Of a stretch of DNA of 64,000 bases, positions 34,893 through 64,000 are shown in pieces; position 1 is the first letter of the stretch, and every line of letters begins with the position of its first letter. The translations under genes were made by a program, and so were the position numbers. Below the pieces are notes generated by a model, which saw only the letters and a program-made list of their open reading frames with translations, did not search any database and was not told where the DNA came from. The DNA is from Candidatus Tidjanibacter gallistercoris (GTDB lineage: Bacteria; Bacteroidota; Bacteroidia; Bacteroidales; Rikenellaceae), in NCBI GenBank assembly GCA_019114205.1, contig DXFY01000045.1, positions 1-64,000 of the forward strand, read 5' to 3'.

Positions 34893-34896
34893 CTCG

Positions 34897-34971
34897 TCGG
34901 GATGACTGGACTCGAACCAGCGACCTTTGGTCCCCCAGACCAACATTCTAACCGGACTGAACTACATCCCG
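34897..34971 (-). tRNA. tRNA-Pro (anticodon GGG)
   Basis: Minus strand CGGGATG...TTGGTCTGGGGGACCAA...GGTTCGAGTCC...CATCCCGA; 7-bp acceptor stem, anticodon loop CTGGGGG, CCA not encoded. Confidence 0.93.
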
Positions 34972-62453: not shown

Positions 62454-63004
62454 TCAGCGTTTCCGTCGCGCCTCCCGCCGCCGTCGCAATTCGGCCTTCA
62501 GCATGGTCAGCTCGCGCGCAGTCTGTCCGCCACCGAGGTGTTCTCCTCGGCCCGGCGAATCAGGTACGGCAGCACTTCCCGCACGCCGGCGTAAGGTACG
62601 TATTCGACCGCGTTGTACCCCGCGGCAGCCAGGTTGAACGAGATGTGGTCGCCCATGCCGTACAGCTGGGCGGAGAACACCCGCCCGTCGTTTCGTGCGA
62701 TTCCATGCTCGTCCGGCAGCCGCGCGAGCAGGCAGTTGCTTTGCTCGTTGTGGCTCCCCATGAAAATTTCCATCCGGTCGAGGTGGTGCATCTGGAGCGT
62801 CTCACCCCCGACGAACTGCCGGTACAGGGTAGGTTTCAACGCCCAGCCTGTCGGCAGCCGGAGCGCGGCAGCGATGCCGGCGAGCCTCTTGCCGGTCTTC
62901 ACGATTCCCGGATGCCGCATCATGCCGAAAAGCATGACGGCATTGCGCATCCCGCCGTCGCTTTTGCCGGCGAATGCGGTCGCGGTGTCGTCGAAATCCG
63001 ACAT
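62454..63004 (-). pseudogene. proline dehydrogenase remnant: internal in-frame core deletion plus C-terminal 1-nt frameshift
   Basis: N-term MSDFDDTATAFAGKSDGG...PTLYRQFVGGETL joins directly to C-term LDRMEIFMGSHNEQSN...SAQLYGMGDHISFNLAAAGYN...YLIRRAEENTSVA; another frame continues QTARELTMLKAELRRRREARRKR*. Confidence 0.8.
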
Positions 63005-63014
63005 GGCCGCCCTC

Positions 63015-64000
<986 letters not shown>

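Follow-up and report, generated by a model that had tools for sequence, protein, structure and literature searches.

An open reading frame of 165 codons close to one end of the stretch analyzed here (the window, 64,000 nucleotides of Candidatus Tidjanibacter gallistercoris) starts and ends like a proline dehydrogenase (PRODH) and lies beside a gene for L-glutamate gamma-semialdehyde dehydrogenase (P5CDH), raising the question of what such a shortened frame represents. An initial annotation proposed that the gene is decaying while the second pathway step is kept, that the assembly is wrong, or that the frame encodes a repurposed mini-protein. The first is the best supported: there are two independent lesions, amino-acid change is faster in PRODH, and the rest of the contig shows no disrupted gene. 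We consider it very probable that the frame is a decaying pseudogene of the stand-alone PRODH from a P5CDH-PRODH pair, with P5CDH retained. In this reading, 210 codons, and with them most of the FAD- and proline-binding barrel, were lost in an in-frame deletion that is most simply a single event; a separate one-base deletion moved the conserved C-terminal tail into another frame; and P5CDH most likely persists by oxidising glutamate semialdehyde/P5C formed by ornithine aminotransferase, on the route from arginine and ornithine to glutamate. Both lesions, the lack of another PRODH, the intact P5CDH frame and the presence of an ornithine aminotransferase gene are observed; that activity is lost, in what order the events took place and what P5CDH does are what we infer, for a species represented by one genome.

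The PRODH remnant and its missing catalytic core

To locate related sequences, we searched the genus with the intact 393-aa PRODH of G002, the closest intact relative, which belongs to the same genus and has the same neighboring genes. Three separate pieces were returned in the window genome (Table 1), bearing out the view that an N-terminal PRODH segment runs straight into a C-terminal one: the first ~71 PRODH residues are fused to the C-terminal ~90 of a stand-alone PRODH. The frame lies on the minus strand (63004-62507), a point absent from the initial annotation, and reads from an ATG at 63004 to its stop codon; a longer frame starts within P5CDH. Just upstream of the ATG, an AGGAGG stretch is present (window 63005-63020), and the G002 sequence there is less typical.

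Table 1. Positions within the window of the PRODH pieces, their lesions and the neighboring P5CDH gene
Feature	Position	Strand	Details
N-terminal PRODH remnant	62792..63004	-	G002 residues 1-71, 72% identity, E 5.9e-28; first 204 nt collinear with G002
C-terminal PRODH remnant	62519..62791	-	About residues 282-372 of G002; search match 283-372 at 62788-62519, 77% identity, E 4e-41
Displaced conserved tail	62457..62531	-	G002 residues 369-393 in the other frame, 68% identity, E 0.002
Deletion junction, GGETLQ/MHHLDRM	62780..62796	-	630 nt (210 codons) absent relative to G002; breakpoint +/- a few codons
One-base-loss region GCGGACAG and out-of-frame end DRLRAS	62507..62531	-	Tail match changes frame from 62531; stop 62507-62509
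P5CDH (L-glutamate gamma-semialdehyde dehydrogenase), intact	63015..64000, runs past the window	-	Open for 547 codons, with its end at 63015; TIGR01236 503 bits

The remnant lacks the full catalytic domain of PF01619: the Pfam Pro_dh match (E 1e-25) extends from profile position 188 to 277, out of 278, and so takes in just the last third of the domain. The barrel motifs FKP, DAED, TLQMY and KFVRGAY all fall within the missing segment, and the C-terminal substrate-side motif RRAEENTS is present. Judged from an alignment with PutA and from PRODH enzymes generally, most of the barrel residues that contact FAD or take part in catalysis lie in the missing segment, and the RRxxEN motif at the C terminus is kept; with most of those residues gone, it is very unlikely that the remnant encodes a functional proline dehydrogenase.

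The N- and C-terminal sequences of the remnant are those of the stand-alone PRODH of Bacteroidales (PF01619; ~390 aa, for example in Parabacteroides), and about half of the stand-alone loci that we fetched carry a P5CDH gene in the same locus, as here; the remnant differs from these enzymes in its absent internal codons and its out-of-frame tail. PutA, the fused PRODH-P5CDH, combines the same two pathway activities and has a PRODH domain related by sequence, but it is a fusion, whereas the window locus has separate genes and fusion-like long frames are found in other genomes of the family. The closest parallel in kind is with ordinary bacterial pseudogenes, which share the deletion plus frameshift, the single copy and the faster amino-acid change, and from which we see no notable difference.

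Two lesions and the deletion junction

Both lesions were defined relative to G002, in which PRODH is flanked by P5CDH on one side and by a gene ending ..SFAGV(S/T)DIVM on the other, as at the window locus; measured against this intact orthologue at the same place, they are disabling. The net deletion is in frame, and its size agrees with the roughly 200 barrel residues that had been estimated to be missing. We aligned the PRODH of 82 intact relatives (80 loci fetched from public genomes, together with G002 and G216), all of which proved to be full length (82/82, ~390 aa), with no conserved 165-aa form among them. Between the securely aligned pieces lie 215 G002 columns, of which 53 are conserved at >=95% across these relatives.

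Near the 3' end of the remnant, a short G run has one base fewer than in G002, which shifts the tail into another frame. With GCGGACAG, the window is short of the relatives by at least one G, and the other frame then continues as QTARELTMLKAELRRRREARRKR followed by a stop, matching the G002 tail, so the C-terminal frameshift proposed earlier stands. The tail is well preserved in its shifted frame, which suggests that this lesion is probably young.

The large deletion is most simply explained by a single event, whose breakpoint can be placed to within a few codons. We had first preferred two successive deletions within the same decaying gene, with a short piece of the middle (TLQMYR-DRM) surviving where the ends join, on the grounds that the junction DNA agrees with an internal G002 stretch, in the same order, at 26 of 30 bases, and that short direct repeats accompany each step. 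That model was downgraded after residue frequencies in the 82 relatives were considered, and it now seems a possible but clearly less probable history: one deletion predicts the same residues, with Q at the N-side position (just after GGETL) in 31/82 and each of M, H and L frequent on the C side (just before DRM), so that only one unusual residue is left, and the internal stretch would require changes at an invariant Y and an invariant R.

Constraint, assembly quality and the alternatives to decay

Pseudogene decay predicts relaxed constraint on what remains, and the evidence for this is modest. Of the amino-acid changes in the retained PRODH codons, an outgroup comparison assigns 10 to the window alone and 2 to G002 alone (sign test, two-sided ~0.04, computed by hand), as against 8 and 8 for P5CDH; the test is of modest strength, with thresholds chosen by us and one sister genome (G002). 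Mean dN to the outgroups is 0.330 for the window and 0.267 for G002 in PRODH, compared with 0.178 and 0.184 in P5CDH. The PRODH/P5CDH ratio of window-G002 dN is 2.31, at the upper edge of intact pairs (median ~1.5; 95th percentile between 2.0 and 2.4 according to which subset is taken). These comparisons point to relaxed constraint on the retained part of PRODH with P5CDH unaffected, and P5CDH looks still constrained. Against decay stand a dN/dS of 0.22 over the retained PRODH codons (window-G002), the lack of any internal stop in the 165 codons and the in-frame size of the large deletion. The first two would mean that decay is recent or that constraint is only partly lost; a low pairwise dN/dS is in any case expected if most of the divergence from G002 predates the deletion.

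It is improbable that the missing 630 nt and the absent G are assembly or sequencing errors in a genome whose real PRODH is intact. The fragmentation of the assembly into 77 contigs, the position of the one-base loss in a short G run and the in-frame size of the large deletion would all suit such an error, but two unrelated errors would be needed within one gene and the surplus of amino-acid changes among the retained codons would go unexplained. Moreover, the missing PRODH segment is on no other contig of this 99.6%-complete genome, and comparison with G002 revealed no other genuinely disrupted gene on the 81-kb window contig. On that contig, 47 G002 ORFs have counterparts, a few of which appear split. 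These candidates for further frameshifts (g26, g49, g53 and g60) were judged to be spurious antisense or out-of-frame ORFs, g49, g53 and g60 by inspection only and g26 in detail, the true genes of its region (pstA, pstB and phoU by sequence) being intact. The sole tRNA found in the window, a tRNA-Pro (GGG) at 34896-34971 on the minus strand, is part of a stretch of 143 bases that has 97% identity to G002.

Less probable still is that a 165-aa product is made and has acquired a new function. The ATG-to-stop open frame, the in-frame deletion and the dN/dS of the retained part would fit a mini-protein, but this dN/dS would be expected anyway if the divergence is mostly older than the deletion, the conserved tail is no longer read in frame, window-specific changes fall at conserved positions (for example F111S and K134E) and the short form occurs in the window only, being present in no other genome examined (the family genomes and the 82 aligned relatives); this option of the initial annotation thus gained no positive support. 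A new non-enzymatic role for the product, such as binding the adjacent P5CDH, is if anything slightly more doubtful again.

Distribution of PRODH and P5CDH in the family

The search for an intact PRODH elsewhere, which the initial annotation had proposed, returned no second or relocated copy in the window genome, where the remnant is the sole Pro_dh/PRODH match. PRODH is rare and patchy, with matches in 2 of 23 genomes in the genus and 13 of 268 in the family. The window apart, all Pro_dh matches in the family cover essentially the whole domain, and most sit in long frames (835-1283 codons), which would fit fused PutA. No convincing PRODH remnant was found in other members of the genus (G018 gave only E 0.04-0.06), and a literature search on PRODH in Alistipes or on such a loss found nothing relevant among the papers searched.

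P5CDH, by contrast, reads cleanly to the window edge, as had been claimed, and remains open beyond it; its frame is full length, intact and 89% identical to that of G002. The TIGR01236 score in Table 1 is for the in-window 327 aa of P5CDH, and the cut-off of 613.6 applies to the whole protein. Stand-alone P5CDH of this type is found in 5 of 268 family genomes, as is ornithine aminotransferase above cut-off (TIGR01885), and the two occur together in four (G000, G002, G020 and G261); the chance of such an overlap is ~1e-7 (hypergeometric, hand-computed, uncorrected for kinship, with three of the four genomes from one genus). The fifth P5CDH genome, G227, which has no above-cut-off aminotransferase, is only 57% complete. 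In G000, a high-scoring ornithine aminotransferase lies at C1:67198-68385. The product of this enzyme, glutamate semialdehyde, is the substrate of P5CDH. The co-occurrence, though seen in few lineages, offers a reason for retention that the initial annotation did not give: P5CDH is probably kept for converting ornithine to glutamate in arginine/ornithine breakdown. Members of the arginase/agmatinase family are present in 7/7 genomes checked and hence do not discriminate, and a PutP-type proline transporter (TIGR02121) was found in neither G000 nor G002, which is hence uninformative. G020, of the same genus, has P5CDH in a different gene neighborhood (C3:3930-4910) and also carries ornithine aminotransferase, but has no PRODH at all.

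Read as a decaying gene, the remnant is a clear case of the stepwise loss of proline catabolism in a family in which PRODH is already rare: it is ordinary gene loss, seen midway. It suggests that the remaining P5CDH belongs to ornithine/arginine breakdown, and for annotation it means that neither a P5CDH gene nor a partial PRODH match is ground for predicting proline use in this species.
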